From Pseudomonas abieticivorans (lineage in GTDB: Bacteria > Pseudomonadota > Gammaproteobacteria > Pseudomonadales > Pseudomonadaceae), in NCBI RefSeq assembly GCF_023509015.1, contig NZ_CP094975.1, positions 2,675,501 through 2,739,500 of the forward strand: DNA of 64,000 bases, read 5' to 3'. Positions 4,256-19,153 of this stretch are shown piece after piece. The number at the start of each line of letters is the position of its first letter. Within the stretch, counting starts at the first letter, position 1. Below the pieces are notes generated by a model that saw nothing but the letters and a program-made list of their open reading frames with translations, had not been told where the DNA came from and searched no databases. A program made the translations under genes and the position numbers.

Positions 4256-4275
4256 TATGTGGAACGCGGCCGTCC

Positions 4276-4427: not shown

Positions 4428-5387
4428 TTATATATCAAGTACCAACCGACGGCTCTTGCAACCGGAAACACACACCATCATTGATTTATTGGCCGCGCGC
4501 TCCGCTTTGGTCAATACACCGTCGCGATGGTCGATATCGCCGTCCAGTACTTTTGTTTCGCACGAGCCGCAGACCCCTTCGCGACAGCTGTATTCAATAT
4601 CGCAACCGGCCTGCAGCAAAACATCTAGCAGATTAAGACCCGGTTCCACGTTGAGTGTCTTGCCGGACTTCTTCAGCTCCACGCTGTAACTGCTGTGTGC
4701 ATCGTCTGCTGGCGGCAGTTCGGCTGCCGTGAAGCGTTCGATATGGGCATGTGGATAACCCAGGCCTTCGCAGGTGTTTTCAAAGGCATCGAGCATCGGC
4801 GTGGGGCCGCAGCAATAAAAGTGCGTATCGCTCGGCTGGCCCGCAAGGTAGGCGGCCAAGTCCGGCGCCAGGCCTTTCTCGTCGTTGAAGTGGTAAACCA
4901 CCTTGGCCTCCACACCGCTCAGGTGCTCCAGCAGGGCGGCTTCCTTGCGCGACCGGGCGCAGTAGATCAGCTCGGCGGATTTACCCAGCGCCAGCAATTG
5001 GCGGAACATGCAGTAGATCGGCGTGATACCAATGCCGCCTGCCACCAGCACGCTGTGCTTGGCGTTCAGGTCCAGGGCAAAATTGTTGCGTGGCTGCGAG
5101 ATGCTCAGTTGCATGCCCACGCGCAGTTGCCCGTGTACGTACTCCGAGCCGCCGCGGCTTTTGCGGTCGCGCAAAATGCCGACCACATAGCGGCCTTGGT
5201 CGCTCGGCGAATTGAGCAGCGAGTAACTGCGCACCAACCCATTGGGCAGGTGCAGGTCGATGTGCGAGCCGGCTTCGAACGGCGTGAAAACCGTATCACC
5301 GTAAGGCCGCAGTTCCACGCTGATGATCCCTTCGGCTTCGTAGCGCAGGGTGTGCACCAGCGCTGTGATGGTAGTTGCATTGGACAT
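4428..5387 (-). CDS. PDR/VanB-type oxidoreductase (Rieske oxygenase reductase)
   Basis: The 319-residue product has the phthalate-dioxygenase-reductase order: FMN/FAD-binding barrel at residues 1-100 (GSHIDLHLPNGLVRSYSL), NAD(P)H-binding domain (LVAGGIGITPIYCM, FYCCGPTPML) and a C-terminal plant-type [2Fe-2S] ferredoxin (CREGVCGSC and a distal VCVSGC). It would pass electrons from NAD(P)H to the Rieske oxygenase encoded two genes upstream, as VanB does for VanA. It is the last gene of the leftward operon, starting 3 bases after the RidA gene's stop. The family is certain; the oxygenase partner is inferred from the operon. Confidence 0.92.
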   Translation of the reverse strand: MSNATTITALVHTLRYEAEGIISVELRPYGDTVFTPFEAGSHIDLHLPNGLVRSYSLLNSPSDQGRYVVGILRDRKSRGGSEYVHGQLRVGMQLSISQPRNNFALDLNAKHSVLVAGGIGITPIYCMFRQLLALGKSAELIYCARSRKEAALLEHLSGVEAKVVYHFNDEKGLAPDLAAYLAGQPSDTHFYCCGPTPMLDAFENTCEGLGYPHAHIERFTAAELPPADDAHSSYSVELKKSGKTLNVEPGLNLLDVLLQAGCDIEYSCREGVCGSCETKVLDGDIDHRDGVLTKAERAANKSMMVCVSGCKSRRLVLDI

Positions 5388-5390
5388 CGG

Positions 5391-5828
5391 TCAGCTCTCC
5401 TGCGCAGTGCGCAAATCAACATCGAGCCGGGCGCTGGCTTCGATTTCCACCCGCAGTTCCGGGAACACCAGGGCGCTCACTTCAACCAGGGTGGAGGTAG
5501 GGTAGGCGGCAAAGCCGTGGAAAAAATCGCGGCGGGCACGGCCCACTTCATCCTTGTCGGCGATGGCTGTGAGGTAAATCGTCAGCCGGTAGATATTGCC
5601 CACATGCCCGCCAGCCGCTTCCACCAGCGAGCGCGCTTTGTTCAGCACTACCAGCGTTTGCGCATAGGCGTCCAGCGGCGCGCCGGCCAGGGCTGCGGTG
5701 CGGGTGGCGGGATGCCCGGTCATGCCGGACATCACCACCTCGTTGCCGATCAGCAGGGCGTTGGACCAGGTGGCGGTGGCCAGTTCGGTCAACTGCGACG
5801 CCTTGATGCGCTGAACGGCGGTACTCAT
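5391..5828 (-). CDS. RidA/YjgF-family protein
   Basis: The 145-residue protein belongs to the Rid (YjgF/YER057c/UK114) family, trimeric enzymes that hydrolyse enamines and imines or act as specialised deaminases. Visible family features are NALLIGNEVVMSGMTGHP, QTLVVLNKARSLVEAAGG, and YRLTIYLTAIADKDEV with the terminal SALVFPELRVEIEASARL. The conserved Arg of canonical RidA (near the VKTTVF region) is not obvious, so it may be a divergent subfamily. Its ATG overlaps the Rieske stop (ATGA). In 2-aminophenol pathways a Rid-family 2-aminomuconate deaminase follows a semialdehyde dehydrogenase; a similar role here is plausible but unproven. Confidence 0.85.
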   Translation of the reverse strand: MSTAVQRIKASQLTELATATWSNALLIGNEVVMSGMTGHPATRTAALAGAPLDAYAQTLVVLNKARSLVEAAGGHVGNIYRLTIYLTAIADKDEVGRARRDFFHGFAAYPTSTLVEVSALVFPELRVEIEASARLDVDLRTAQES

Positions 5829-6859
5829 GACAGCTGCTTCGCGTCGATCAGTTCCAGCTGGGCCTTTGCCTTGCCTTTCAGGTAACGGCGCAGGCGCACC
5901 ACGCCCAGGTCGTGGGCGTAGAGGTTTTCGCGCTGGTTGGCGTCGGCTTCCATGAACTCCAGCAGCACACGGTCCTGTTCCAGCACGGCCCAGTGGCGGG
6001 CTTCCAGGCGGTTCTTGTAGAGGAAGCGCCAGGTGTCACGCTGCCAGCCGGTCAGTGGGCGGCAACGCCAGTGGAACACTGCAGCCAAGTTGCGGCTGCT
6101 GGGGGTGTAGCTGCCGATGATGGTGAAGTTGCCGCCCGGGCCACCGGTTTTCGGGTAAGGGATTTCCAGACGCAACCAGTGGCAGCCATTGTCGACGAAC
6201 TCGGTCCAGTCAAAGTTCACGCCACGCTGGCCTTCTTTCTCGAAGAAGAAACCCTGCTCGGTGTCACGGGTGACGAACTTGGCGGTGGCTTCACCTTCAC
6301 TCATCGAGTGCGACATCTTGTGCAGGTAGGTGCCGTGCATCGGGTCCATGACGTTGTCGAGCACGTAGCGGTAGTCGCCTTTCCACTCGGTATAGCAAAC
6401 GAAGCTGCTCCACTCGGGCGAGGTCAACTGTTCGGGCAATTCAAGCTGCGGCGGCGTTTCCAGGTGCGGGTCGGTGGCGTTGAACAGAAAAATCGCACCG
6501 GCGGCTTCACGGGTGTGGAACATGCGGGTAGGGCGGGCACCCTCAAGTTTGCAGCCTGGGCTGCCGGGCACCTTGGTGACGGTGCCGTCGCAGCGCACTT
6601 CCACGCCGTGGTAAGGGCATTGCAGGCGATCGCCCAATACCGGTCCTTGGGACAGCGGGGCACCGCGGTGCGGGCAATGGTCTTCCAGGGCATGGACGCT
6701 GCCGTCGTTGTCGCGCCACAGGGCGATCTTGTAGCCCATGCGGCGCACGGAGACAGGTTTTTCGCCCAACTGGTCGGAGGGTAAAACAGGGAACCACAAG
6801 TCTTTCAGGCCGTTGGCCAGGAGGTTCTCAACAGGATCAGCGGTCACGTGCATATTCAT
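5825..6859 (-). CDS. Rieske [2Fe-2S] non-heme iron oxygenase, oxygenase component
   Basis: The 344-residue product has a Rieske domain with CPHRG (Cys62, His64) and CPYHGV (Cys81, His84). It is followed by the mononuclear iron site MDPMHGTYLH (Asp172, His175, His180), matching the D-x2-H-x4-H pattern. Size and order fit VanA-like single-subunit (alpha3) oxygenases that demethylate or hydroxylate aromatic and other compounds. Electrons should come from the PDR-type reductase two genes downstream. The RidA gene overlaps its end by 4 bases. The substrate cannot be deduced; no beta subunit is present in the operon. Confidence 0.93.
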   Translation of the reverse strand: MNMHVTADPVENLLANGLKDLWFPVLPSDQLGEKPVSVRRMGYKIALWRDNDGSVHALEDHCPHRGAPLSQGPVLGDRLQCPYHGVEVRCDGTVTKVPGSPGCKLEGARPTRMFHTREAAGAIFLFNATDPHLETPPQLELPEQLTSPEWSSFVCYTEWKGDYRYVLDNVMDPMHGTYLHKMSHSMSEGEATAKFVTRDTEQGFFFEKEGQRGVNFDWTEFVDNGCHWLRLEIPYPKTGGPGGNFTIIGSYTPSSRNLAAVFHWRCRPLTGWQRDTWRFLYKNRLEARHWAVLEQDRVLLEFMEADANQRENLYAHDLGVVRLRRYLKGKAKAQLELIDAKQLS

Positions 6860-6881
6860 GTCTTATCTACCTTTGGGCGTC

Positions 6882-7109
6882 TTACGCGCCCAGCCGGGCC
6901 ATCAGGGTCTTGTAGGCGTCTTCGGTCCACTCGCCGGTGGTCAGCGGGCAGGGCGGGCCGGCGTGGTTCAGGTGCGCCAGCAGCGCGGGCAGGTCGGCAA
7001 TGCCACTGCCGTAGGCGCGCTCGATGGAGTCGCCCAGCAGTTCTTCAAACTGGGTGTTCGGGCGCTGGCGGGCCTGATGGGGCTCCAGGTAACGTTCGGT
7101 GGTGCTCAT
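6882..7109 (-). CDS. small recombinase-like helix-turn-helix domain protein
   Basis: The 75-residue protein MSTTERYLEPHQARQRPN... is acidic, with ELLGDSIERAYGSGIADLPALLAHLN and a C-terminal GEWTEDAYKTLMARLG. I recall small proteins of this kind named 'recombinase-like HTH domain' next to Rieske oxygenase genes, but the name is structural and no DNA recombination is implied. The start at 7109 is fixed by GGAGG eight bases upstream, which itself overlaps the end of the preceding gene; the upstream ATG would hide this site. It sits 1 base after the 105-residue gene and 22 bases before the Rieske gene. A helper role for the oxygenase is inference. Confidence 0.75.
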   Translation of the reverse strand: MSTTERYLEPHQARQRPNTQFEELLGDSIERAYGSGIADLPALLAHLNHAGPPCPLTTGEWTEDAYKTLMARLGA

Positions 7110-7110
7110 G

Positions 7111-7428
7111 TCATTGACCTCCATTGCGTACCCGTTCGCGGATCATTTCGCGCACGGGGATAAAGTCGTAGGTGGCGTAGCATTCGGTGCGGAACACACC
7201 CCAGGCCGAGCGCTCCAGCTCGACGTTGACCTTGCCCAGCAAGTGCGGCGGCAAGCGCAGGGTGACGATCTGGCCCAGGCCCATGGCGACGGTCCAGGAC
7301 ACCACTTCCACGCCCTGCGGCGGGAAGCTGTCCCACCAGCCCATTTGCTTCATGTGGGCCTGGATCTGTTCCAGGTTCTTGCTCTGGTCGTGCTTGAGCA
7401 CGACCGTCAGCAGCAGGGTTTCGCTCAT
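7111..7428 (-). CDS. conserved protein of unknown function in oxygenase operon
   Basis: This 105-residue protein, MSETLLLTVVLKHDQSKNLEQIQAHM..., is not one I recognise. The alternation of strands and helices (LLLTVVLKHD, EQIQAHMKQMGW, VEVVSWTVAMGLGQIVTLRLP, VNVELERSAW, ECYATYDFIPVREMI) suggests a small alpha/beta sandwich of ferredoxin-like type. No signal peptide or cysteine cluster is present. It overlaps the VOC gene by 4 bases and its end provides the ribosome site of the next small gene, so it is tightly co-translated within the operon. Confidence 0.8.
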   Translation of the reverse strand: MSETLLLTVVLKHDQSKNLEQIQAHMKQMGWWDSFPPQGVEVVSWTVAMGLGQIVTLRLPPHLLGKVNVELERSAWGVFRTECYATYDFIPVREMIRERVRNGGQ

Positions 7429-8390
7429 GGCTTGGGTTTATCCGTAAGGAATTTGCCTTGCGGCGCTTCGACGTTTTGCTGGCGACGGGTGTTGCCATCG
7501 ATGCCGCCGGCAATTGCCCACTCGGCGAAAATAGTCGGGCCTGGCTCGAACTCGCGAGGCTCCCACTCGCCGGTCAGTTGGTCTTCGTCGGCGTAGTATT
7601 CGATCAAGGCGCCGGCCGGGTTTTTGAAGTACCAGAAGAACGCCGACGACACCGGGTGGCGCCCCGGGCCGATCTCTGTGGCCCAACCGCTGCGCGAGAT
7701 GTGCATGCCACCGCCAAACACTTCATGCACGTCGCGCACGGTGAAGGCCACGTGATTAAGGCCGGCACGCGGGGCAGGCAGCTGCAGCATGAACAGGTCG
7801 TGGTGGCCACCTTCCTCGGCGGTGCGTAAAAAGGCGCCGCGGTTGGGGTAGCGGTCCGAGGCCTGGAAGCCGAAGCGCTCGTTGTAGAAGGCTTCGCAGG
7901 CGTTGACGTCCTTGACGAAAAACACCACGTGGCCGACTTCGATGGGTGTGGCGCGCTCGTAGATGGGCGCAGGCTTGTTGATGCGGCCCTTGGTTTGCCA
8001 GGTGTTGTGGCCGCTGCATTCGATGTCCAGCTCGCGTTTGCGGGTTACCTGCAAACGGATCGCCAGGCCATTGGGGTCGGTGCAGCCGATGCGCCCATTG
8101 CCTTCGACAAAGCCTGGGTCGTTGGCGATGCGCTCGCTGTACAGCGCCAAGTCCGCTTCGCTTTCCACGCCCCACACCACTTCGCGCACGGTGGAGCCGG
8201 CTTCGATGGCGTCTGGCAAGCCTGGCTTGTCGATGGCGGCCAATACCACGCGGCAACCGTTGAGGGTTTCGAAGATCACCTCGTCGGGTTGTTCGCTGAC
8301 CTTATTCAGGCCCCAGTCGCTGAAGAAGCGTGCACAGGTGTCGAGGTCCTCGACGCCGTAGGTGACTTCATCAATACCTAAAACGCTCAT
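7425..8390 (-). CDS. VOC-superfamily extradiol-type dioxygenase
   Basis: The 321-residue protein has two vicinal-oxygen-chelate modules (about 5-115 and 150-270), the layout of type I extradiol ring-cleavage dioxygenases such as catechol 2,3-dioxygenase and BphC. The C-terminal module keeps the metal triad: His154 (VGHVVFF), His213 (LNHVAF) and Glu264 (LIEYYAD); the N-terminal module lacks it, as is usual. Ring-opening of a diol or aminophenol-like product made by the Rieske oxygenase is the natural inference. It overlaps the aldehyde dehydrogenase gene upstream and the 105-residue gene downstream by 4 bases each. Confidence 0.88.
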   Translation of the reverse strand: MSVLGIDEVTYGVEDLDTCARFFSDWGLNKVSEQPDEVIFETLNGCRVVLAAIDKPGLPDAIEAGSTVREVVWGVESEADLALYSERIANDPGFVEGNGRIGCTDPNGLAIRLQVTRKRELDIECSGHNTWQTKGRINKPAPIYERATPIEVGHVVFFVKDVNACEAFYNERFGFQASDRYPNRGAFLRTAEEGGHHDLFMLQLPAPRAGLNHVAFTVRDVHEVFGGGMHISRSGWATEIGPGRHPVSSAFFWYFKNPAGALIEYYADEDQLTGEWEPREFEPGPTIFAEWAIAGGIDGNTRRQQNVEAPQGKFLTDKPKP

Positions 8391-9883
8391 GACGCTACCT
8401 CTCGGTGCCCGCTGGCCCAGGCCAGTGGCTGTTCGTTCATGCCCCAGTAGAGGCTCTTCTGTTCCATGTATTGCAGGATCCCCAAGCGGCCTTTTTCACG
8501 GCCCAGGCCGCTGTCGCGCCAGCCGCCAAAGGGTGTGGAAATCGAGAACTGCTTGTAGGTGTTGATCCACACCGTGCCCGCCTGGATCTTGCGGCCCAAG
8601 GCCCAGGCGCGTTTGTAGTCGCGGCTCCAGATACCGGCGGCCAAGGCGTACAAGCTGTCATTGGCCTGCTCGATCAGGTCGGCTTCGTCATCGAACGGCA
8701 TGGCCACCAACACCGGGCCGAAGATCTCTTCCTGGCAGGTTTGCTGGCTGTTGCTCAGGCCCTCAAGGATGGTCGGCGGGTAGAAAAAGCCTTGGTCGTA
8801 GATCCCCCCGGTGGGGCGCTGGCCACCCAGGCGCAAGGTGCCGCCTTCGGCTTGGCCCAGGGCCACGTAGCGTTCCACGGATTCGCGGTGGGCGGCGCTG
8901 ATCAGCGGGCCCATCTGGGTGTGCTCATCGGCTGGGTCGCCAACACGGATCTTGGCGGCCGCAACCGTCAGGCGCTCCATAAAGGTTTCGTATAGCGGGC
9001 GCGCCACGAACAGCCGCGAGCCGGCGATGCAGGCCTCGCCCGATGAGCTGAAAATGCCGTACAACACGCCAGCCACTGCGTGGTCGAGGTCGGCGTCATC
9101 GAGCACGATGGTCGGCGACTTGCCGCCCAGTTCCAACGACACCGGCATCATCTTGTCGGCGGCGATGTGGGCGATGTGCTTGCCGGTCTTGGTGCCACCG
9201 GTAAACGACACACGCTTGATCAGCGGGTGCTGGGTCAGGGCATCACCCAGCAGCGAGCCCTTGCCCGGAAGTACGCTGATCAAGCCTTTGGGCAGGCCCG
9301 CGTCTTCGCAGATTTGCGCCAATTGCAGGGCCATCAGTGGGGTGATTTCCGCCGGTTTAATCACTACCGCGTTGCCGGCTGCCAGGGCAGGGGCGACCTT
9401 TTGCGCTTCGCTGGCAATCGGTGAGTTCCACGGCGTGATGGCCGCGACCACACCCATCGGTTCGTACACGCTCATGGTGACGAAATCACCGCGCGACGGC
9501 GTGATGGTTTCTTCCAGGGTTTCACAGGCAGCGGCAAAAAACTGAAAGGTACCGGCTGCGCTGGCGACCAAGGCGCGGGTTTCGCCGATGGGCTTGCCGT
9601 TGTCCTGGCGCTGCAGTTGGGCGAGTTCTTCGCTGCGTTCACGGATCAAGGTGGCGATACGGTACAACACGCTTGCGCGTTCGTGGGGCTTGCGCTGGGC
9701 CCAGCCACTGTTGAGAAAAGCTTGATGCGCACCTTGCACGGCGTCTTCCACATCGTCCAGGTTGGCGGCGTTGAGCCAAGCCACGGGTTCACCGGTGGCA
9801 GGGTAGCGTGTGGCGTAGCGGTCGCCACGGCCCAGGCGCCAGGTGCCGGCGATGCAGATGGGCAGAGTCTGTTCGAGAGTCAT
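8387..9883 (-). CDS. NAD(P)-dependent aldehyde dehydrogenase
   Basis: The 498-residue protein is a standard ALDH. It shows the NAD-binding segment AAITPWNSPIASEAQKVAPALAAGN-, the glycine motif FTGGTKTG, the general base in SLELGGKSP and the nucleophile Cys in SSSGEACIAGSRL. I take the ATG at 9883, preceded by AAGGGGAAGCCG, rather than the longer frame with a 16-residue extension that overlaps the previous gene. In this operon it could oxidise a ring-cleavage semialdehyde (compare 2-aminomuconic or hydroxymuconic semialdehyde dehydrogenases), which is inference. It starts 10 bases after the aspartate-dehydrogenase-like gene. Confidence 0.93.
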   Translation of the reverse strand: MTLEQTLPICIAGTWRLGRGDRYATRYPATGEPVAWLNAANLDDVEDAVQGAHQAFLNSGWAQRKPHERASVLYRIATLIRERSEELAQLQRQDNGKPIGETRALVASAAGTFQFFAAACETLEETITPSRGDFVTMSVYEPMGVVAAITPWNSPIASEAQKVAPALAAGNAVVIKPAEITPLMALQLAQICEDAGLPKGLISVLPGKGSLLGDALTQHPLIKRVSFTGGTKTGKHIAHIAADKMMPVSLELGGKSPTIVLDDADLDHAVAGVLYGIFSSSGEACIAGSRLFVARPLYETFMERLTVAAAKIRVGDPADEHTQMGPLISAAHRESVERYVALGQAEGGTLRLGGQRPTGGIYDQGFFYPPTILEGLSNSQQTCQEEIFGPVLVAMPFDDEADLIEQANDSLYALAAGIWSRDYKRAWALGRKIQAGTVWINTYKQFSISTPFGGWRDSGLGREKGRLGILQYMEQKSLYWGMNEQPLAWASGHREVAS

Positions 9884-9893
9884 CGGCTTCCCC

Positions 9894-10697
9894 TTAGATG
9901 GAAATCGCATGGGCGTGGTTACCCAGGGCACGGACCACGCTGTAGACGGTCAGGGCCGAGGTCTTGGGGTTGGCTTGCAACGGTTTGCCGCGCAGGCTCA
10001 GCTCGAAACCGCCAAAGGCGCCGCGGGCTTCGAACTGGTGCACGTTTTCGTCGCTCAACGGGTCGGCGATCAGCGTGACTTGGGTGCGATCCAAGCCGAT
10101 GCCCGCCAAGGACAAGGTGGCCGCCACGTTGGCGTTTTTCGGGTACAGCTGCGCAGCTTCGCGGGCGCTGCCCTGGAAAATCACCGTGGCTTCGGTGATG
10201 GTGTCCAGGTCGCAGGCCAGCTCACCCGGCGTGTTTTTCCAGGCGCGGGCCGGTTTGCGGCCGGTGTAGCTGACCGAGTCCAATCCGCCAACCTTGGCCG
10301 CCGACAGCGCATCGATGCCACCGATGGCGCCGGGTAGCAGCTCGATGCGGGTGTTGCCGCGATCTGCCGCAGCCTCCAGCCGCTCAACCAGGCCAACTTC
10401 TGACAGTGCACCCACCGACACGATCAGGCAGGCAATACCGCGTTCCAATGCGGGCAACACGTGCTCTTCAATGGCCTTGTGGCCGGCGCACTCAACCAGC
10501 AGGTCGGGGCGTGCATTGGCCGGCAAGGCAGTGAGTACCTGCGGCGGGTTCTTGAAGCTGGCCAGGCGCTGGCGCACCAGGTCCTCGGACCCGGCCGAGG
10601 CGATGACGTGGTCAACGCACAGGGTAGGGTCCTTCTCCAGCAGTTCCAGCACGCCGACGCCAATGGCGCCGCAGCCGATCATGGTGATATGCAACAT
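9894..10697 (-). CDS. aspartate dehydrogenase-like protein (NadX/DUF108 family)
   Basis: The 267-residue product has an N-terminal Rossmann fold (MIGCGAIGVGVLELL). Its C-terminal catalytic domain carries the family pattern NVAATLSLAGIGLD, DPLSDENVHQFEARGAFGGF and NPKTSALTVYSVVRAL. Known members oxidise L-aspartate to iminoaspartate with NAD(P). Iminoaspartate or a related imine might link to the RidA-family protein made by the same operon. The start is the ATG of MLHITMIGCG at 10697; the much longer in-frame extension belongs to the overlapping ThDP gene. Whether aspartate is the true substrate in this catabolic setting is unknown. Confidence 0.85.
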   Translation of the reverse strand: MLHITMIGCGAIGVGVLELLEKDPTLCVDHVIASAGSEDLVRQRLASFKNPPQVLTALPANARPDLLVECAGHKAIEEHVLPALERGIACLIVSVGALSEVGLVERLEAAADRGNTRIELLPGAIGGIDALSAAKVGGLDSVSYTGRKPARAWKNTPGELACDLDTITEATVIFQGSAREAAQLYPKNANVAATLSLAGIGLDRTQVTLIADPLSDENVHQFEARGAFGGFELSLRGKPLQANPKTSALTVYSVVRALGNHAHAISI

Positions 10698-10707
10698 GGC
10701 GCGGTCC

Positions 10708-12390
10708 TCAGGCAGTGGCCTTCTGAGCCTTGGTTTCGCTGTTGGGCGGGCCGGCGAACTGGGTGGCGAAACCGCCAACCGCAAGCATGTCCACTTCCAG
10801 CAGGAACGGGCCCGGTTGGGCGAGGGCGCCTTCGATAACGCCGCTAAAGTCCTTAAGGTCGCTGACCACTGCGTGGCGCAGGCCCATGGACTCGGCCAAC
10901 TGGGTGTAGTTCGGGGTATGCAACTCCACGTAGGCGTGGCGGGCGCCATAGATCGCGTCCTGGATGTTGCGGATAACGCCATAACGCTGGTCGTTCATTA
11001 GCAGGATCACCACATTGGCCTTCTCCTGCACCAGGGTCGCCATTTCACCCAGGTTGAGGATGAAGCCGCCGTCGCCTGCCAATGCGAACACTTTGCGCTG
11101 GGGTGCGGTTTCTGCCGCTGCCACTGCGGCGCCAATGCCCATGGCCAGCGCTTGGCCGATACCGCCGCCCAAGGCGTGAACACCGGCTTGCGGGTGGTAC
11201 AGGTTAATCAAGCGGTTGCCCCAGATGCTGTTGGACAGCGTGACGTCGCGCACCCAGGAAAAGTTGCGGCCGGTCACGGCTTGCAGTTGTTCCACCAAGG
11301 CAGAGTAGGGCCCCAAGTCGGCCGTCAGTTGCTCACGGGACTTGGCACGCACCGCATTTAGTTCCACGTGGAACATTGGGTCTATATTCAGGCGACCTGC
11401 CAATCGATCGGCCAAGCCGTCCAGTGCCAGGGCGGTATCGCCACAAACGAACAAGTCGCTGGAGTAGCTGCGGCCTTCGATTGCGGGGTTGGCGTCGATG
11501 CGCAGGGTGGTTTGCGGCAGTTTCAGCGCGTACTTGAAGGTCTCGTTGGAGCGCAGGCGCGAGCCGGCCACCAGCAGCACGTCGCACGACTGCATGAACT
11601 GTTCCACGGCGCGGTTCTGCGAGAAGGCGCCCAGGCAGCGCAGGTCATCTTCGTTGACCACGCCGCGGCCTTGGGTAGAGGTGATCACACCGACGCCCAT
11701 GTCCAGCAAGCGCTTAACTTGCTTGCCGGCGTGACGAGCACCGCCGCCCAACCAGAGCATCGGGCGCTTGGCACCGGCCATGCGCTCGGCTAAAGCGTCC
11801 AGCGCCTCAGTTGCGGGTACGGCCACCGGGATCGGCAGCGGCGCGAGGTCGGTCGGCATGGTGATGAAGGTGGATTGGATGTCGATCGGGATTTCGACGC
11901 TCACGGGGCCAGTCGGTGCCGTGAGGGCCGTTTGCACCGCCAGCTTCATGGTGCTCAGCGCGGTTTCCACGCTACGCACGCGGAAGGCCGCTTTGGACAC
12001 GGCTTTAAGCATGGTCAGCTGATCACGGGCTTCGTGGATGTAAGCGAACTCCTGATCCAGATACTGGGTTTCGATCTGGCCGGTGATGTGCAGCAGCGGG
12101 GTGCCTGCGGTCTGTGCTTCGACCATGGCACCTGCGGCGTTGCCTGCCGCCGTGCCGGTAGAGGTCAGGCACACGCCCAGGCCGCCAGTGGTGCGAGCAT
12201 AGGCATCGGCCATGTTGGTGGCGCCGGCTTCGCCGCGAGCCATCACGAAGCGGATGTTGCCACGTACGGCGAAGGCGTCGAGGATTGGCATGTTGTGGAT
12301 CGAGATCACCCCGAACGCCGCCTTGACGTCGCATTGTTCGAGGAACGCGGTAATAGCAGCACCTACGGTGACTTGGTTGTCGTTACGCAT
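10708..12390 (-). CDS. thiamine-diphosphate-dependent enzyme (benzoylformate decarboxylase/acetolactate synthase-like)
   Basis: The 560-residue protein has the three-domain ThDP fold. It shows the N-terminal Pyr domain with catalytic Glu in FVMARGEAGATNMADAYAR, the central domain (ARHAGKQVKRLLDMGVGVI) and the C-terminal PP domain with the ThDP motif GDGGFILNLGEM ... LLMNDQ. The family includes acetolactate synthases, benzoylformate and other 2-oxoacid decarboxylases. The ATG at 12390 (MRNDNQVT) has a CGGAGG 11 bases upstream and overlaps the preceding SDR gene by 8 bases. Decarboxylation of an oxo-acid intermediate or carboligation are both possible; neither can be chosen from sequence. Confidence 0.88.
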   Translation of the reverse strand: MRNDNQVTVGAAITAFLEQCDVKAAFGVISIHNMPILDAFAVRGNIRFVMARGEAGATNMADAYARTTGGLGVCLTSTGTAAGNAAGAMVEAQTAGTPLLHITGQIETQYLDQEFAYIHEARDQLTMLKAVSKAAFRVRSVETALSTMKLAVQTALTAPTGPVSVEIPIDIQSTFITMPTDLAPLPIPVAVPATEALDALAERMAGAKRPMLWLGGGARHAGKQVKRLLDMGVGVITSTQGRGVVNEDDLRCLGAFSQNRAVEQFMQSCDVLLVAGSRLRSNETFKYALKLPQTTLRIDANPAIEGRSYSSDLFVCGDTALALDGLADRLAGRLNIDPMFHVELNAVRAKSREQLTADLGPYSALVEQLQAVTGRNFSWVRDVTLSNSIWGNRLINLYHPQAGVHALGGGIGQALAMGIGAAVAAAETAPQRKVFALAGDGGFILNLGEMATLVQEKANVVILLMNDQRYGVIRNIQDAIYGARHAYVELHTPNYTQLAESMGLRHAVVSDLKDFSGVIEGALAQPGPFLLEVDMLAVGGFATQFAGPPNSETKAQKATA

Positions 12391-13180
12391 GGCGGGACAG
12401 GCCTCCGGAAACATCGATATGGCTGCCTGTGGTGTAAGCCGACAAGGGCGAAGCCAGGAACAGGATCGCGCGGGCTGCCTCTACGGGCAGGCCCAGGCGG
12501 CCCAGGGGAATGTGTTTGCGTTGCGCCAGTTGGGCGGTCCATTGCGACCAGTCGAGTTCGCGCTCTTCACGGGCTTCGAAGCGCCGGCGCCACTGGCCGG
12601 ATTCCACCAGGCCAATGAGGATGCCGTTGACTCGGATGCCATTTCCGGCGAACTCGGTAGCCATGGAACGCACCAGGTTTTTAAGCCCGGCGCGGGCGGC
12701 CGAGGTGGCGACCATGTGCGGCTCGGGTTGGCTGGCCAGCAGCGAGTTGACGCAGACAATGGCCGCGCTCGCTTGGCTCTCAAGCTGGCCCATGAAGGCG
12801 CGGACCGGGTTGATCACCGAGAAGAACTTCAGGTTCAGCTCTTCGGTCCAGGCTGCATCGGTGGTGTCGGCAAAGGTTGATACGCGCCCTTGGCCGGCGT
12901 TGTTGATCAGCATTTGTGCCGGGCCGAACGCGGCCAGGCTGGCGGTGGCGAAAGCCTGTACTGATGCTGCGTCGAGCACATCGCAGCGCTGGGCCAACAG
13001 GTGGGCGTTGGGAAAGCGCTCGCGCAGTTGCGCTTCGGCGCTGCGCAGGCGGTCTTCGTTACGGCCACAGAAGGCGACTTTGGCGCCGGCTTCCAGTAAC
13101 AGTTCCACGCAGGCCAAGCCGATACCGGAGGAGCCCCCGGTCACAATCGCGGTGCGGCCGTCGATTTGATAAAGGCTCAT
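12383..13180 (-). CDS. SDR-family protein with an atypical active site
   Basis: The 265-residue protein has the SDR cofactor motif TGGSSGIG, DV (DVLDAAS), INNAGQG and the Ser of VNSLLAS. The catalytic Tyr-x-x-x-Lys is replaced: the segment HMVATSAARAGLKNL aligns T for Tyr and R for Lys. The end (HIDVSGGLSRHA) is normal. It may be a reductase with relocated chemistry, or an enzyme of a different reaction. Its first gene neighbour upstream is the IclR regulator, 1 base away. A second, canonical SDR lies three genes further upstream in the same operon. Confidence 0.85.
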   Translation of the reverse strand: MSLYQIDGRTAIVTGGSSGIGLACVELLLEAGAKVAFCGRNEDRLRSAEAQLRERFPNAHLLAQRCDVLDAASVQAFATASLAAFGPAQMLINNAGQGRVSTFADTTDAAWTEELNLKFFSVINPVRAFMGQLESQASAAIVCVNSLLASQPEPHMVATSAARAGLKNLVRSMATEFAGNGIRVNGILIGLVESGQWRRRFEAREERELDWSQWTAQLAQRKHIPLGRLGLPVEAARAILFLASPLSAYTTGSHIDVSGGLSRHA

Positions 13181-13181
13181 C

Positions 13182-14009
13182 TCAATCCCTCATCAGCGCA
13201 GTGACGCGGTTGTGGTGTTGGTGGGGCGTGTAGTTGAGCAGGCGCGAGAGTTCATCGGCGCTGCGGCGAACCTGGGCCAGGGTTTCTTCAAAGTTGACGT
13301 GGCCGATCTGCGAGGTCGGAATGGTTACGCCCAAGGCCGCGACCACGCCACCGGTGTGGTCACGTACCGGTGCCGCAACTGTGGAAATGGCCGATTCAAA
13401 AAAGCCTTCGCCGCTGACAAAACCGCGCTGACGGTCTTTCTGTACCAGGTCGAACAGGTCGAGCACGGTGCTTGGGGTGCAGTCGGAGTGGCGTTCCAGA
13501 TGCTCTTCCGGGTACAGCTCGCGCAGGTCGGCCAGGGACAGATCTTCCAGCAGGATGCGGCCCAGCACGGTGGCGTGGGCGGGCAGGCGGGTGCCCACGT
13601 TGACGGCGCTGGAGAACACCGACGGTGGCGAAACCTTGGCCACGTAAACGATCGAGCGGCCGTCGCGCACCACTAGGTTGCTGGGGTAGTTGAGCTTGTC
13701 GCACAGGCGCGCCAGCAACGGTTGGCCCAGCTCGGTGAGTTCCAGCGAAGCGAGGTATTCGAAGCCCAGACGCAACACCGACATGCCCAGGCGGTATTCG
13801 TTGCCGGTACGGGTGACGAAGCCCATGGTCTCCAGCGTGGTCAGCAGGCGGAAGATGGTCGAGCGCGGCAGCTCCAGGCGACGGGCCAGTTCGGGCGCTG
13901 TGAGGGTGCGGTTTTGCCGGCTGAATTCACACAGCAGCAACAGGCCGCGTTCCAGGCCGGGCACGATGTACTTGTCCTGGGCGTCTTTGGTCAGATCCGA
14001 GTCATTCAT
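13182..14009 (-). CDS. IclR-family transcriptional regulator
   Basis: The 275-residue protein has an N-terminal winged HTH (LTAPELARRLELPRSTIFRLLTTLETMGF, residues 36-64) and the IclR effector-binding domain (SVFSSAVNVGTRLPAHATVLGR, GFVSGEGFFESAISTVAAPV, GVVAALGVTIP). IclR proteins bind small aromatic or carboxylic ligands and repress or activate catabolic genes. It is unusual that it lies inside the operon rather than divergently, being co-transcribed with the hydrolase (4-base overlap) and the SDR (1-base gap). It lacks an AAA+ domain, so it cannot by itself activate the sigma54 promoter inferred for this operon. Confidence 0.93.
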   Translation of the reverse strand: MNDSDLTKDAQDKYIVPGLERGLLLLCEFSRQNRTLTAPELARRLELPRSTIFRLLTTLETMGFVTRTGNEYRLGMSVLRLGFEYLASLELTELGQPLLARLCDKLNYPSNLVVRDGRSIVYVAKVSPPSVFSSAVNVGTRLPAHATVLGRILLEDLSLADLRELYPEEHLERHSDCTPSTVLDLFDLVQKDRQRGFVSGEGFFESAISTVAAPVRDHTGGVVAALGVTIPTSQIGHVNFEETLAQVRRSADELSRLLNYTPHQHHNRVTALMRD

Positions 14010-14875
14010 TGAGCGCTACCTGTCATGGATTGCTGGACGGCAAAGGCCAGGCGGCCTGCCACCACGTAGGGTTGTTCGATGGGGCTGGCGTGCCCGGCAT
14101 CGGGAATCAGGGTGAAGCTCACGCCCAAGGCTTTGGCCAGGCTGTGGCACGTCTCGGGGGTGGTGATGGAATCGGCTTCGCCGCAGTGCACTTCGCACGG
14201 CACGCTGAGTGGGGTGTGGCGCAACAGGTCATCACCGCACAGCAACTCGATGGCTTGGCGATAGCCCTGGTGGTTTAGCCGCGCCATGTTCCAACGCACC
14301 CAGGCCAGGGCCTTGGCGCTGGCGCGAGTGGACAGCATGTGGCTGCTGCGTTGCTCGGCCATGGCCGGGATACCAAGGGTTTCCAAGCTGTGCAGGCGTT
14401 TGGCACGAACCTGCAGGCGCTGGGTTTCGCGCGCTGGGTCGCCGTAGCCTCGGGCTGGGCTGAGCAACACCAGGCGGTTGACGCGTTGCGGGTACAGTTG
14501 GCTGAACGCAGCGGCGGTGATGGCCCCCAGTGAATGGCCTACCAGCACGCAGCGTTCAATATTCAGGGCGTCGAGGGTTTGCAGCAGTCGCGCGGCGTAG
14601 TCCTCGGCAGTGGGTGCAGCGGGCGCCAATGGCGTGGAGTCGCCATAGCCGGGGGCGTCCCAGGCAATCACCCGGGCGCCCTGGCTAAGCTGCAATGCCA
14701 CTTCCAACCACGACGCCGCGCCCGAGCCGATGCCGTGCAGCAAGACGATCACGGGGCCGTCGCCGGCTTCACGTACGGCTTGTTGGCAGCCATCAAGCTT
14801 GAGTGTGCGCTGGGCAAAGCGGCTGTCCAGCAGGCCTTGCAGTGCAACGGTCGGGTTTTCAGTGGCGTTGAGCAT
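14006..14875 (-). CDS. alpha/beta hydrolase
   Basis: The 289-residue protein has the oxyanion HG motif (LLHGIGSGAASW), the nucleophile elbow GHSLGA and a late catalytic His (DAGHASPIEQP), in family order. Meta-cleavage-product hydrolases, lactonases and esterases share this fold. I place the start at 14875 (MLNATENPT), preceded by GGATAAG; the longer frame overlaps the cupin gene. In the operon, hydrolysis of a C-C or ester bond after ring cleavage is possible but not proven. Confidence 0.88.
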   Translation of the reverse strand: MLNATENPTVALQGLLDSRFAQRTLKLDGCQQAVREAGDGPVIVLLHGIGSGAASWLEVALQLSQGARVIAWDAPGYGDSTPLAPAAPTAEDYAARLLQTLDALNIERCVLVGHSLGAITAAAFSQLYPQRVNRLVLLSPARGYGDPARETQRLQVRAKRLHSLETLGIPAMAEQRSSHMLSTRASAKALAWVRWNMARLNHQGYRQAIELLCGDDLLRHTPLSVPCEVHCGEADSITTPETCHSLAKALGVSFTLIPDAGHASPIEQPYVVAGRLAFAVQQSMTGSAQ

Positions 14876-14879
14876 GGTC

Positions 14880-15419
14880 TTATCCGCGCTTGATCGAGGC
14901 CAGGGGGTGTTCTGGCGGATAGGTCGGGGTAACGGGCTTTTTCGCGCCAAGCATCACGCACATCAGTGCGTCCTCATCGCCGATGTTGATCTCTTCGCGG
15001 TACACGCCTGGCGGCACCGAAATCACATCACGGTCGGTGAGGATGGTTTCGTAGCGCTCGCCGTTCTGCTCGATCACTACTTTGAGCTTGCCGCGCAGCA
15101 CGAAAAACACTTCTTCCACGTCGGTGTGCAGGTGCGGTGGGCCTTCGTGGCCGGCCGGGATCACCATGGTGGAGAAGGTAAAGTTCTCTGACGGGATGGT
15201 GTTCATGTCGGTGCTGACGCCCGTACCGCCGGTGCCGATGTAGCGCATTTGCGCGCGGCGGAACTTGGGGTCGTAGTCGGCCTGGAACTTCAGCGCGTTC
15301 CAGTCGTACTTGCGCGTCTGGTAACGGGCGACGCGGCTCTGCATCCAGCTTTCCAGGCTGGCGCCTTCTGGGCGTTCCCAGCTTTTCGGGGCATCTTGTT
15401 GCACGGATAGATCAGTCAT
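14880..15419 (-). CDS. cupin-domain protein
   Basis: The 179-residue product has one cupin barrel with two metal-binding motifs, PPHLHTDVEEVFFVLRG and VISVPPGVYREE. The His-His-Glu of motif 1 is present (HLH and E), and the second-motif His is replaced in VPPGVYRE. Cupins in catabolic clusters act as dioxygenases, isomerases or regulators. The ATG at 15419 has AAGGAGACAGCC upstream; an upstream in-frame extension would reach into the SDR gene. It begins 13 bases after the SDR stop. Without the full His set its role as a metal enzyme is uncertain. Confidence 0.82.
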   Translation of the reverse strand: MTDLSVQQDAPKSWERPEGASLESWMQSRVARYQTRKYDWNALKFQADYDPKFRRAQMRYIGTGGTGVSTDMNTIPSENFTFSTMVIPAGHEGPPHLHTDVEEVFFVLRGKLKVVIEQNGERYETILTDRDVISVPPGVYREEINIGDEDALMCVMLGAKKPVTPTYPPEHPLASIKRG

Positions 15420-15432
15420 GGCTGTCTCCTTA

Positions 15433-16194
15433 TCAAGGCATGACAAACCCGCCGTTGACCGGCAGGGTTTGTCCAGTAATGAAGCGGGCAAGGTCGGAAA
15501 GGGCGAAGATCACCGCGCCGCTGACGTCGTCGGGCAATTGCGCGCGTTGCAGGGCGCGTTGTTCGGTGTACAGGCGGTGGCGTGCTTCGGGCACGTAGGC
15601 AGTGGCCTCCACCAACACCAGGCCGGGGGCGATGGCGTTGACGGTGATGTTGTCCTTGCCCAGCTCGCGGGCCAGGCTGCGGGTCATGGCAATGACCGCG
15701 CCCTTGCTGGCGACATAGGCCAGCAGGTTGGTTGCGCCCCACAAGGGGGTGTCCGACGCCAGGTTGACCACTGCGCCGCGGCCGCTTTCACGCAGTGCCG
15801 GTAGGCAGGCGACGGTCATCAGCCAGGTGCCGCGCACGTTCACCTGCATCACCTGGTCGAAGGTGTCGATGCTCAGCTCTTCGCACGTTTTGCCGCCGGA
15901 GTTAGTGATCGAGGCGTTGTTCACCAGGCCATCCAGGCCGCCCAGGCGCTGCACGGTTTCGGCCGCGCAGGCAGTAATGGAGGCCGGGTTGGCGAGGTCG
16001 ACGGTTACGCCACTCACGTCCAGGTCCTGGGCTTGCAGTTCGGCTGCCGCTTGTTGCACGCGCTCGGAAAGGATGTCGGCGATCACCACGCGAGCACCGG
16101 CCGTGGCCAGCGCCTGGGCAAAGGCGAAGCCCAGGCCGCGGGCGCCACCGGTGACCAGCACGCGGCGGCCTTCGAGTAGTCGATGGGTTGTCAT
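15433..16194 (-). CDS. SDR-family NAD(P)-dependent oxidoreductase
   Basis: The 253-residue protein is a classical SDR: TGGARGLG at residue 16, NNAS, VNLAS as the Ser motif, and YVASKGAV as the catalytic Tyr-Lys. It ends LPVNGGFVMP. Its ATG shares one base with the stop codon of the permease gene (TAATG), so it is translationally coupled to the importer. A dehydrogenase of a diol or hydroxy-intermediate is likely from context. Compare the atypical SDR at 12383-13180 in the same operon. Confidence 0.92.
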   Translation of the reverse strand: MTTHRLLEGRRVLVTGGARGLGFAFAQALATAGARVVIADILSERVQQAAAELQAQDLDVSGVTVDLANPASITACAAETVQRLGGLDGLVNNASITNSGGKTCEELSIDTFDQVMQVNVRGTWLMTVACLPALRESGRGAVVNLASDTPLWGATNLLAYVASKGAVIAMTRSLARELGKDNITVNAIAPGLVLVEATAYVPEARHRLYTEQRALQRAQLPDDVSGAVIFALSDLARFITGQTLPVNGGFVMP

Positions 16195-16970
16195 TATTGG
16201 GTACTCAGCATGGCTTTGGGCATGTAGTGCAGGACGCGCTTCTCGGCCCAGACCACTGCGCCGTAGGCCAGTACGCCAATCACGGTGAGCATCACGATGG
16301 CGACGAACACGCCACTGGTGTTGCCTTGGCCTTCAGCGTCCACCAGCAGGAAGCCCAGGCCCTGATTGCCGCCAACCAACTCGCCGACGGTCACGCCGAT
16401 TACCGCCAGGGTGGAGGCAATGCGCAGGCCGGAGAACAGTGCGGCCATGGCCGAGGGGAACTCCACCAGGCGGAAGATCTGCCAGCGGCTGGCGTTCATG
16501 GTGCGCACCAGGTTGATCATGTCCGGGTCCACGGTACGGATCGCCGACAGCACGTTGATCATTACCGGGAAGAACACGATCAATACGGCGATCAGGATCT
16601 TCGGGTAAATGGTGTAACCCAGCCACATTACGAACAGCGGCGCGAAGGCCACCTTAGGGGCGATTTGCAGGGCCAGGATGTAGGGCGAAAGCATCGCTTC
16701 GGCGGCAGGCGACAAGCCCAGCGACACGCCGATCATCACGCCTAGCAGGGCGCCAAGGCCGAAGCCAACGATGATTTCAAACGCGGTGATCAGGGTGTGT
16801 TGCAGCAGGCTGCTGGACTGCCACATCACCACGCTTTCTTGCGCCACGCGGCTGAGCTTGGGCATCACGAACTCCGGCATGCCCAGCAGGCCAGGGCCCC
16901 ATTGCCAGGCGGCGAGGAACAGGATCATCAGGGCCGTGCTGCCGAGCACGGAATTGTTCAGGCTTTTCAT
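16194..16970 (-). CDS. ABC transporter permease (NitT/TauT type)
   Basis: The 258-residue membrane protein has about six hydrophobic helices and the cytoplasmic EAA-type loop (TMNASRWQIFRLVEFPSAMAALFSGLRI), typical of SsuC/TauC permeases. It forms the membrane component with the ATPase (18023-18874) and the binding protein (16998-17984). Together they should import a small anionic or aromatic substrate across the inner membrane. Its stop shares a base with the next SDR's ATG. Confidence 0.9.
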   Translation of the reverse strand: MKSLNNSVLGSTALMILFLAAWQWGPGLLGMPEFVMPKLSRVAQESVVMWQSSSLLQHTLITAFEIIVGFGLGALLGVMIGVSLGLSPAAEAMLSPYILALQIAPKVAFAPLFVMWLGYTIYPKILIAVLIVFFPVMINVLSAIRTVDPDMINLVRTMNASRWQIFRLVEFPSAMAALFSGLRIASTLAVIGVTVGELVGGNQGLGFLLVDAEGQGNTSGVFVAIVMLTVIGVLAYGAVVWAEKRVLHYMPKAMLSTQ

Positions 16971-16997
16971 CGGTTGCGTACCTTCTATGTCCCGCGG

Positions 16998-17984
16998 CTA
17001 CTTGGCGGCCGTCGTGGTTTCGATGAATTGGTTGGTGTACAGGTCGTCCAGCTTGGGCTCCTTGCTGACGATGCCTTCGCTGACGTAGAACTGGCGGACC
17101 TTGTCCAGGCGCGCCGGGTCGATCTGGCCGAGCACGGTCTGGTTGGCGTAGACGTGGTCGATGTAGAGTTTGAAGGTGCGCTCAAGCGCCGCTTCCTTGC
17201 CGGCGTAGGCCGGTACTGCTTTGGCGAAGGTGGCCGCGGCAGCGTGTGGGTCCTGGATGATGTCGCGCATGCCTTGCAGGGTCGCTTGCACCACGCCGCG
17301 CACTACGTCCGGGTGGTTTTTGATGGCGTCGTCGGAAGCCAGGATCGCCTGGGCCATGCTTTCAAAAATTTGCTCCTGAGGGATCAGGCTGACCTTGAGG
17401 CCGGCATCCTGGGCATCGATGATCCAGTCCGGCACGCCGGCCATGGCTTCGGCTTTTTTCGCCGAGAACAACTGCCACACGCCGGCAGGCCCGGCAGCCT
17501 GGATGTTCACGTCGGTCTTGCTCAGGCCGGCTTTGCGCAGCGAGGCCAGCAGGGCGTAGTAGGTGGTATCTGAGTAGGACATCACCGTCAGCGTCTTGCC
17601 TTTGAGGTCGGTGATGGCGTTGATGTGCTCGTCGGCATTGGTGGCAATCATGGTCACGCCACCGGCGCCCAACACGGCCACCGCGCGCACCGGGATGCCG
17701 TTGGGGCGTACCACGATCGGGGTATCGCCAATGGCGCCGCCCACCATGGCGTTACCGGCGCCAATCTGCTTGGCCACGTCGACCCCGCCCCTGGCGGCAA
17801 TAAACTCTACGTTCAGGTCCTTGCTGGTGTAGTAGCCCTTTTCCTTGGCGATGATCCACGGCGCGAACGCCGGCGAGTTCGGCGGCGCCGGCAACAGGTA
17901 GGTGACGTCGGTCTGGGCCTGGGCCTGCAGCGCTACGCTGAAGGCCAGCGCGGCAAGTGAAGTGGTGAGCAAGGACTTGAACAT
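16998..17984 (-). CDS. ABC transporter substrate-binding protein (NMT1/SsuA type)
   Basis: The 328-residue product carries a signal peptide (MFKSLLTTSLAALAFSVALQAQAQ) and the periplasmic binding fold of the NMT1/SsuA family (FAPWIIAKEKGYYTSKDLNV, GGVDVAKQIGAGNAMVGG). Homologues bind sulfonates, taurine, nitrate, pyrimidines or phthalate, so the ligand is unknown. The ATG at 17984 is preferred over the longer frame because AGGAG lies 7 bases before it. It follows the ATPase gene by 38 bases. Confidence 0.92.
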   Translation of the reverse strand: MFKSLLTTSLAALAFSVALQAQAQTDVTYLLPAPPNSPAFAPWIIAKEKGYYTSKDLNVEFIAARGGVDVAKQIGAGNAMVGGAIGDTPIVVRPNGIPVRAVAVLGAGGVTMIATNADEHINAITDLKGKTLTVMSYSDTTYYALLASLRKAGLSKTDVNIQAAGPAGVWQLFSAKKAEAMAGVPDWIIDAQDAGLKVSLIPQEQIFESMAQAILASDDAIKNHPDVVRGVVQATLQGMRDIIQDPHAAAATFAKAVPAYAGKEAALERTFKLYIDHVYANQTVLGQIDPARLDKVRQFYVSEGIVSKEPKLDDLYTNQFIETTTAAK

Positions 17985-18022
17985 ACTGACTCCTGAATTC
18001 GTTGATGGCCGTGTGGCGTGGA

Positions 18023-18874
18023 TCAATGCAGGTCGCTGTCTTCGCCGACTTTTAAAAGCTCCATCAGGCGCCCGGCCAGCGGGCCGATTTCCGGCAGCTT
18101 GCGGCGCTCCAGCGGGTTCTCACGGAAGGGCAGGTCGACAACGATTTCTTCGACGATGGTGCCGGGGCGGGCACTCATCACCAGCAGGCGGTCGGACATG
18201 GCGATGGCTTCCACCAGGTCATGGGTAATGAACAGCGCAGTTTTCTTTTCCTGGTGGAGCATCTGCGCCATGTCCTGCTGCAGGATCATCTTGGTTTGCG
18301 CATCGAGGGCCGAGAACGGCTCGTCGAGGAACAGCACCTGCGGATCAATGGCCAAAGTCCGCGCCAGGGCTGCCCGCTGGCGCATGCCACCCGACAACTG
18401 GAAGGGGTAGTGGTCGGCGAAGCCTTGCAGGTGGCAGCGGTTGAGCAGATCTTCAGCGATGACCTTGCGCTGATCCCTGGGCATGCCTTGGATCTCCAGC
18501 CCCAGCTCCACGTTGCGGCGGATGGTGCGCCAAGGCATCAGCAGGTCCTTTTGCAGCATGAAAGCCACCTTGCGCACGGGGCCTGTTACCGGCTCACCGC
18601 CCACAAAGACTTCGCCTTCACTCGGGCGATAGAGCCCCGAGCCCATGTTCAGGATGGTGCTTTTGCCGCAGCCCGATGGGCCGATGATGGACACCACTTC
18701 GCCACGGCGAATCTTGAAATTCACACCACGGATGGCGAAAGGAGCTTCTTTCTGCCCTTTGGCCGGGAAGCATTTGCCGACGTTACGGAACTCGATCTCG
18801 GTCGGTTCCAGGTGTTCCTTTGGAGTGGGGTCATTCCATTGCGGGGTGATGGCGAACAACTCTTTCACAGCCAT
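18023..18874 (-). CDS. ABC transporter ATP-binding protein (NitT/TauT type)
   Basis: The 283-residue ATPase has Walker [11 protein letters not shown]-loop (VAFMLQKDLLMPWRTI), signature LSGGMRQR, Walker B VLFLDEPFSALD and the H-loop (FITHDLVEA). It is the first gene of the leftward operon, about 34 bases downstream of the predicted sigma54 transcription start, and drives the importer formed with the next two genes. Placing the importer first fits a substrate-inducible uptake and degradation operon. Confidence 0.93.
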   Translation of the reverse strand: MAVKELFAITPQWNDPTPKEHLEPTEIEFRNVGKCFPAKGQKEAPFAIRGVNFKIRRGEVVSIIGPSGCGKSTILNMGSGLYRPSEGEVFVGGEPVTGPVRKVAFMLQKDLLMPWRTIRRNVELGLEIQGMPRDQRKVIAEDLLNRCHLQGFADHYPFQLSGGMRQRAALARTLAIDPQVLFLDEPFSALDAQTKMILQQDMAQMLHQEKKTALFITHDLVEAIAMSDRLLVMSARPGTIVEEIVVDLPFRENPLERRKLPEIGPLAGRLMELLKVGEDSDLH

Positions 18875-18892: not shown

Positions 18893-18905
18893 TGTTTTAT
18901 AGGTG
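18893..18905 (-). promoter_or_regulatory. leader block shared with the porin
   Basis: Leftward the sequence CACCTATAAAACA is identical in the porin leader at 4141-4153. An AACAC-GT-T half-dyad lies just upstream in both. It is downstream of both sigma54 elements and may be a repressor or RNA-level control site; the IclR protein is one candidate binder. Confidence 0.35.
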
Positions 18906-18918
18906 ATACGGTGTTTAG

Positions 18919-18934
18919 TGCATGAACAATGCCA
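18919..18934 (-). promoter_or_regulatory. candidate sigma54 (-24/-12) promoter of the catabolic operon
   Basis: Leftward the sequence reads TGGCATTGTTCATGCA. GG and GC are 10 bases apart and the -24 TGGCA is intact, as in the porin promoter. The predicted start lies near 18908, about 34 bases before the ATPase ATG. Confidence 0.68.
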
Positions 18935-18973
18935 GCTCGTTTAATAGCCAGATTAATTAAAAAACCTGTCTTT

Positions 18974-18986
18974 AATCATATGGTTA
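18974..18986. promoter_or_regulatory. candidate IHF-binding site
   Basis: AATCATATGGTTA fits WATCARNNNNTTR except one base. Its centre is 47.5 bp upstream of the -24 GG, identical to the porin promoter spacing. Confidence 0.45.
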
Positions 18987-19010
18987 TAAGAAAACGGTTG
19001 TTTAATGAGC

Positions 19011-19026
19011 GTTTCATATATGAAAC
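19011..19026. promoter_or_regulatory. perfect dyad, candidate enhancer/operator
   Basis: GTTTCATATATGAAAC is a perfect 16-base palindrome centred 86 bp upstream of the sigma54 -24 GG. Imperfect copies occur at 19138 and, before the porin, at 4276. The distance fits a sigma54 activator site; an IclR-type operator is the alternative. Confidence 0.65.
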
Positions 19027-19137
19027 AAGGTTTTCTATATGGCACGAAACTGCACAGTCCTCGGGCGTGGAATGTGTAGTTGCGAGAAAAGAGTGCTTTT
19101 TGAAGTAACGGCGGGGATGGCGGCTAAGTGCCAGTTT

Positions 19138-19153
19138 GTTTCATGGGTGAAAA
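19138..19153. promoter_or_regulatory. second copy of the dyad
   Basis: GTTTCATGGGTGAAAA differs from the ideal GTTTCA-N4-TGAAAC only in its last base. It is 127 bp from the first copy (about 12 helical turns), so both could be bound on one face of the DNA. The rest of 18935-19206 is A+T-rich and carries no gene that I can support. Confidence 0.5.

Follow-up and report, generated by a model that had tools for sequence, protein, structure and literature searches.

RNA polymerase carrying sigma54 requires a bEBP, of which NtrC is one, and IHF aids the process by bending the DNA. The rut operon combines NtrC with the pathway repressor RutR. The promoter that we describe here would share with rut-like operons the union of a nitrogen signal with a specific regulator, but RutR is of the TetR type and the regulator found here belongs to the IclR family. 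In the excerpted text of PMC8443478, an NtrC site of Pseudomonas stutzeri consists of a pair of GC elements separated by 11 nt; loss of ntrC lowers glnK, which has a putative NtrC site. Our promoter resembles such NtrC-dependent, glnK-type Pseudomonas promoters (as they appear in the excerpts of PMC8443478) in having a -24/-12 element with a GC-N11-GC box about 90-130 bp upstream. Yet IclR-type operators overlie its core promoter and adjoin its NtrC box, of which it usually has one, whereas glnK promoters have two. For the IclR family, the portion of Suvorova and Gelfand consulted (PMC8222616) gives sites of the form GTTYCRYW3RYGRAAC, with tandem centres 18-22 nt apart in 94 groups. Relative to the group 1 subgroup GTT-11-AAC in that portion, the operators described below share the half-sites GTTYCRY/RYGRAAC and the tandem spacing, but their core is 10 bp rather than 11 and they are placed on a sigma54 promoter. 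PcaR/PcaU/PobR are the best NCBIfam match of the regulator, yet the operators listed for them in the same portion have CGATNATCG-like centres. In the excerpts of PMC11778176, sigma54 is assigned to a gas-vesicle operon and IclR sites to another promoter with -10/-35 elements. The parts of our promoter are of known kinds; IclR-type tandem operators with a 10-bp core on an NtrC/sigma54 promoter are an arrangement that we did not meet in our searches of the open-access literature.

The locus lies in a 64-kb window (the whole stretch of DNA analysed, 64,000 nt) of the 6.7-Mb genome of Pseudomonas abieticivorans. Its predicted catabolic operon comprises transporter genes and genes for two SDRs, a cupin, a hydrolase, an IclR-family regulator, a TPP enzyme, an aspartate dehydrogenase, an ALDH, a glyoxalase/dioxygenase-type protein, a Rieske protein and a reductase; the transporter genes, the first SDR and the reductase were named by reading their sequences alone. 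In the open-access literature, we found no paper evidently treating this operon. With the first operon protein as query, we retrieved related loci and kept the best 80 of 288. The best operon matches among named genomes are nearly all from Pseudomonas, the top match being an unclassified gammaproteobacterium. Promoters were compared in a Pseudomonas set of 54 (the window, L044-L095 and L098), of which 40 show pairwise differences of over 25% across 320 bp; L096, L097 and L099-L103, which are more distant, were inspected separately from this set. Relative to the other loci, L045 has about 2.2 kb of extra DNA (9900-12065) between the substrate-binding and permease genes.

Table 1. Predicted features of the operon and porin promoters and of the associated genes, in window coordinates.
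Feature	Position	Strand	Remarks
Predicted catabolic operon	4428..18874	-	Single transcript deduced from gene order
Operon gene 1, ABC transporter ATP-binding protein	18023..18874	-	Named by reading, without family search
IclR-family regulator	13182..14009	-	Best NCBIfam match PcaR/PcaU/PobR, below cut-off
Promoter-proximal pair, second half GTATCACCTATAAAAC	18894..18909	-	10/12; predicted start to about +15
Promoter-proximal pair, first half TGTTCATGCACTAAAC	18913..18928	-	8/12; overlaps the -12 GC
Sigma54 -24/-12 element TGGCATTGTTCATGCA	18919..18934	-	GG-N10-GC; 9/12 consensus positions
IHF-like site AATCATATGGTTA	18974..18986	+	8/9 consensus bases; centre 47.5 bp from GG
Main dyad GTTTCATATATGAAAC, predicted IclR operator	19011..19026	-	Perfect; centre 86 bp from GG
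Partner dyad GTGCCATATAGAAAAC	19030..19045	-	8/12; 19 bp upstream of main dyad
NtrC-like box CGCCCGAGGACTGTGCA, predicted enhancer	19051..19067	-	GC-N11-GC; 41 bp upstream of main dyad
Upstream dyad TTTTCACCCATGAAAC, near-copy	19138..19153	-	127 bp beyond main dyad; 213 bp from GG
Porin tandem pair AGTTCACACTTAACAC + GTGCCACCTATAAAAC	4142..4176	-	Downstream of the -24/-12 site
Porin sigma54 site TGGCATAGTTCCTGCT	4188..4203	-	Porin gene at 2830-4062
Porin-promoter dyad GTTTCACGGGTGACAC	4276..4291	-	At most one mismatch
Porin NtrC-like box CGCACCGGCGCTGGGCA	4316..4332	-	41 bp from dyad; rank 50 in window

The initial annotation of this DNA placed a GG-N10-GC element on the reverse strand before the operon, an IHF-like site centred 47.5 bp from its GG, a perfect dyad 86 bp upstream of the GG and a near-copy 127 bp further; all are present, the first at 18934-18919. 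Taken alone, the -24/-12 match is within chance, as the two strands of the window together contain 62 GG-N10-GC sites that score 9/12 or more. Though a match of this kind is common, the site is significant because it is conserved across Pseudomonas promoters: the 16-mer TGGCATTGTTCATGCA is identical in 51 of the 54, all 54 retain GG-N10-GC, and the site stands in a TGGCAC-N5-TTGC-like context. Among the distant loci L104-L123, 18 of 20 have -24/-12 sites of 10-12/12, a range that includes those of Herbaspirillum and Pigmentiphaga; the Oceanobacter site scores 9/12, and Thauera has none of at least 9/12. The predicted sigma54 promoter is thus borne out by its conservation and by the sites in Herbaspirillum and Pigmentiphaga. 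We regard as highly improbable the alternative that the operon has a sigma70 promoter and that the -24/-12 match is an accident, kept through the overlapping IclR dyad. One sigma70-like site of 9/12 does lie at 19004-18975, where 0.5 would be expected, and the abundance of sigma54-like matches in the window agrees with such an accident, but the -24 half, which is outside the dyad, is equally invariant, the sites of the distant loci score 10-12/12, and a porin promoter repeats the layout.

Over the 40 divergent promoters, mean column conservation is 0.99 at the -24/-12 element, 0.95 at the start-site pair, 0.93 at the main dyad, 0.87 at the partner dyad, 0.76 at the IHF-like site and 0.71 at the NtrC box, against 0.47-0.57 in the spacer and upstream stretches. 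An IHF match of at least 8/9 lies between the dyad and the -24 site in 43 of the 54 promoters; in 39, such a match falls 50-54 bp upstream of the -24 site; the mean best match, 7.9/9 versus 7.1 in shuffles, is mildly above expectation in the same 54. The putative IHF site is supported by its constant position, less strongly than the sigma54 promoter.

The dyads stand out by their rarity. Three with at most one mismatch occur in the window, two at the operon promoter and one before the porin gene, where shuffling predicts 0.16. Across the genome, exact copies number 2 versus 0 for a reversed control pattern, and copies with at most one mismatch number 11 versus 5, three of the 11 being in this gene cluster. 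They also occur in tandem: in 79 promoters, a second dyad (at least 8/12) lies exactly 19 bp upstream of 97 of the 189 dyads of at least 10/12, versus a mean of 0.3% at other offsets, in a count that includes many related promoters repeatedly. Because of this repetition, we also tested 16 regions, taken from several lineages, one by one. For 13 of them, none of 400 shuffles attained the offset-19 score, and for the other three 0.25-0.75% of shuffles did; the best pair offset was 19 in 12 of the 16 (two tied), and another offset was better in four. In Pseudomonas, tandem pairs lie over the -12 element and the predicted start, and the second half of this promoter-proximal pair is the best dyad at a constant distance of 25 from the -24 site in all 54 promoters, with 9-10/12 matches in 53. 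In the window, the predicted start is near 18908, some 12 nt beyond the -12 GC. In 53 of 54 promoters there is also an upstream dyad of at least 9/12, separated from the main dyad by 99-127 bp. These 53 distances form three groups, 99-104, 111-116 and 123-127 bp, at intervals of about 12 bp.

The main dyad agrees with the IclR group 1 half-sites GKTYCRY ... RYGRAMC at each of the 14 positions, and the 19 nt between tandem centres fall within the 18-22 nt range of that family. Group 1 cores are 11 or 12 bp with a W3-4 centre; the dyad core is 10 bp, and the dyad is therefore a spacing variant rather than a strict member of the published IclR subgroup. A gene for a protein of this family is part of the operon in 78 of the 80 loci (the best 80 of 288). 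In the 79th, from Oceanobacter, some 13 kb separate it from the transporter gene, apparently on the same contig; the L068 genome gave no close IclR match (34% identity at best), possibly because the locus ends with the contig. Over 79 sequences, conservation is higher in the DNA-binding part of the protein (0.91) than in the remainder (0.82). The window's protein scores 173.6 bits against PcaR/PcaU/PobR (TIGR02431), below the curated cut-off of 284.75 bits. A search for homologues across the class returned only the genome itself among 369, and one across the family returned 13 of 248. Most likely, judging from motif and gene linkage, the dyads are landing sites of the operon-encoded IclR-type regulator.

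More distant lineages place the pairs differently. In L099, L100, L102 and Oceanobacter, a tandem pair directly follows the -24/-12 site, and in Herbaspirillum and Pigmentiphaga the pairs lie further downstream of it. In Oceanobacter, one tandem pair is located between the IclR gene and a divergent porin gene, at about 280 bp from the nearest 9/12 -24/-12 site; another immediately follows a 9/12 site. Tandem pairs are also present in the Thauera MAG (L113), in whose intergenic region no -24/-12 site reaches 9/12; this locus is weak evidence because an 8/12 GG-N10-GC site overlaps a dyad. A further stretch of Oceanobacter, L255:8719-8890, combines a 9/12 sigma54 site and an IclR-type pair with a subsequent hairpin-like sequence; no same-strand ORF of at least 150 aa is close by, and it is possibly a small RNA.

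The initial annotation had read the whole arrangement as a classical RpoN enhancer architecture. The sigma54 promoter and the IHF site of that reading are supported, but not the dyads as enhancer: a classical bEBP enhancer lies upstream and not over the start, and we rejected this role given the 19-bp pairing, the overlap with core promoter and start, the downstream siting in Herbaspirillum and the Oceanobacter pair beside the IclR gene without a good -24/-12 site. For the same reasons, we find it decidedly unlikely that the dyads are upstream activating sites of an unlinked bEBP, with the IclR protein acting elsewhere or having no role at this promoter. That reading does account for the classical enhancer distance of dyads in Pseudomonas (86 and 213 bp from the GG for the main and upstream dyads, with the IHF-like site between), for the 20 bEBP-like genes of the genome, none of them in the window, and for the eight of 11 near-exact dyads outside the gene cluster. 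Against it stand, besides the pairing and the dyads over or downstream of promoter elements, the results for linked genes: neither the window nor the 80 loci (the best 80 of 288, covered for up to 8 kb per side, 68 of them over at least 16 kb) yielded a bEBP signature. A slightly broader bEBP pattern recovers 20 of the 24 PF00158 loci of the genome itself. Two bEBP-like proteins of this genome, L142 and L143, have altered GAFTGA loops (GAFEGA in one, none recognisable in the other) and may not cooperate with sigma54 in the ordinary way.

A better candidate for the enhancer, absent from the initial annotation, is found just beyond the partner dyad. Columns upstream of the main dyad form a palindrome, YGCMC-N7-GKGCA (GC-N11-GC), with a variable centre; the window's version, CGCCCGAGGACTGTGCA, is imperfect and ranks 6 of 63,984 window positions. 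Each of the 12 glnK promoters read has the same box twice, at 91 and at 124 bp upstream of its -24/-12 site and with 9-10 of 10 positions matched, glnK being the P-II gene assigned by sequence in 12 genomes. We built an NtrC matrix solely from these 24 glnK boxes and applied a threshold of p<1e-3. A box passing this threshold lies exactly 41 bp upstream of the dyad, and thus upstream of the -24/-12 element, in 45 of the 54 operon promoters, including 33 of the divergent 40, as compared with 11 of 54 at the best competing offset of 93 tried; the threshold was failed by 9 of 54 operon promoters and by 9 of 28 porin promoters. Similar boxes precede the -24/-12 sites of Pigmentiphaga; they are weaker in part of Herbaspirillum, and the Oceanobacter operon has no convincing one. 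The GC-N11-GC box at 19051-19067 is a likelier enhancer than the dyads. It is unlikely, in our view, that this box serves another bEBP with NtrC-like specificity. Other bEBPs may recognise palindromes like that of NtrC, and the box is degenerate in the window, but it matches the glnK promoter boxes of the same and related genomes. A second NtrC-like box, 30 bp away from the first and 71 bp upstream of the main dyad, occurs in 11 of the 54 promoters. In the glnK promoters (L237-L248), a CATGCACTGATGCAGT-like stretch is also conserved, some 33 bp past the point where the -24/-12 site begins.

The layout is repeated 15 kb from the operon promoter. At 4142-4332 of the window, an NtrC-like box, a dyad, a sigma54 site and a tandem pair precede a porin gene. 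The porin is present in all 35 operon-bearing genomes searched, and we read the promoters of 30 of the 35 matches. A -24/-12 site of at least 9/12 is found in 26 of the 30 and a tandem pair with a summed score of at least 16/24 in 27; the module of box plus dyad (at least 9/10 and 8/12, respectively) is present in 20 and incomplete in 10. With the glnK matrix, 19 of 28 anchored porin promoters have an NtrC box with p<1e-3 at 41 bp upstream of the dyad, versus 5 of 28 at the best competing offset (73 tried).

As regards the protein assignments, we consider it probable that this is a sigma54 promoter activated by NtrC, with pathway control by the operon-encoded IclR protein. Under nitrogen limitation, phosphorylated NtrC would occupy the GC-N11-GC box, some 127 bp before the GG, and, aided by IHF-induced bending, would activate sigma54-RNA polymerase at the -24/-12 element. 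The IclR protein would bind the tandem dyads as a dimer of dimers, occupying the pair over the -12 element and start, the pair abutting the NtrC box and the lone dyad further up. Without inducer, it would block the promoter, perhaps by joining the two pairs, which are 117 bp apart; with inducer, it would release the DNA or itself change shape. The porin gene would be driven by the same two inputs, nitrogen limitation and the pathway signal. Control by NtrC, if correct, suggests that the substrate of the operon yields nitrogen.

The sequence itself shows the elements with their order, positions and conservation, the duplicate layout at the porin gene and the linkage of the IclR gene. We infer that NtrC and the IclR protein are the acting proteins and that the latter adds the substrate signal; it more likely represses, over the -12 element and start, but is possibly a partner of NtrC. 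The second option keeps both proteins and is compatible with the main reading; it differs in that IclR bound beside the NtrC box would assist activation. IclR members of the PcaU/PcaR type can be activators, the 41-bp spacing of box and dyad is fixed in two separate promoters, and the upstream pair begins 5 bp from the operon's NtrC box. We nevertheless hold assistance to be the less likely role, though a possible one, and favour blocking because the most widely kept pair covers the -12 element and start site. More tentatively, and at somewhat less than even chances, we suggest that an IclR tetramer and NtrC form one unit of fixed 41-bp spacing on the sigma54 promoter, with IclR clamping the -12 element and start. 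If true, an IclR-family protein would directly govern open-complex formation by sigma54 polymerase. No IclR protein acting so on a sigma54 promoter was found in the open-access literature, subscription papers being outside the scope of this statement. Candidate proteins can now be named for every part of the promoter, an uncharacterised pathway is predicted to be a nitrogen source in many Pseudomonas and some betaproteobacteria, and the two promoters offer a system for testing IclR-family control of sigma54 polymerase.

Genome-wide searches gave a first view of the possible extent of this control. A strict dyad with a -24/-12 site at 60-90 bp matched the operon promoter in 28 of 35 operon-bearing genomes and nothing in seven; G052, G365 and G446 each gave one extra match, resembling coding sequence. 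Exact TGCAC-N7-GTGCA sites number seven in the P. abieticivorans genome versus one for a reversed control, and for four of the seven a sigma54-like match scoring 9/12 or better lies within 400 bp. Exact palindromy is a poor predictor of NtrC binding, because these seven sites gave no clear nitrogen regulon across that genome. Among the near-exact dyads outside the gene cluster, the one at L149:1501-1535 (G000:C1:825270), GATTCAAACCTGAAAC, lies some 17 bp ahead of the start of a gene that was judged permease-like by reading. This dyad is a possible further IclR target, and a wider IclR regulon is possible because it has an 8/12 partner 19 bp on.
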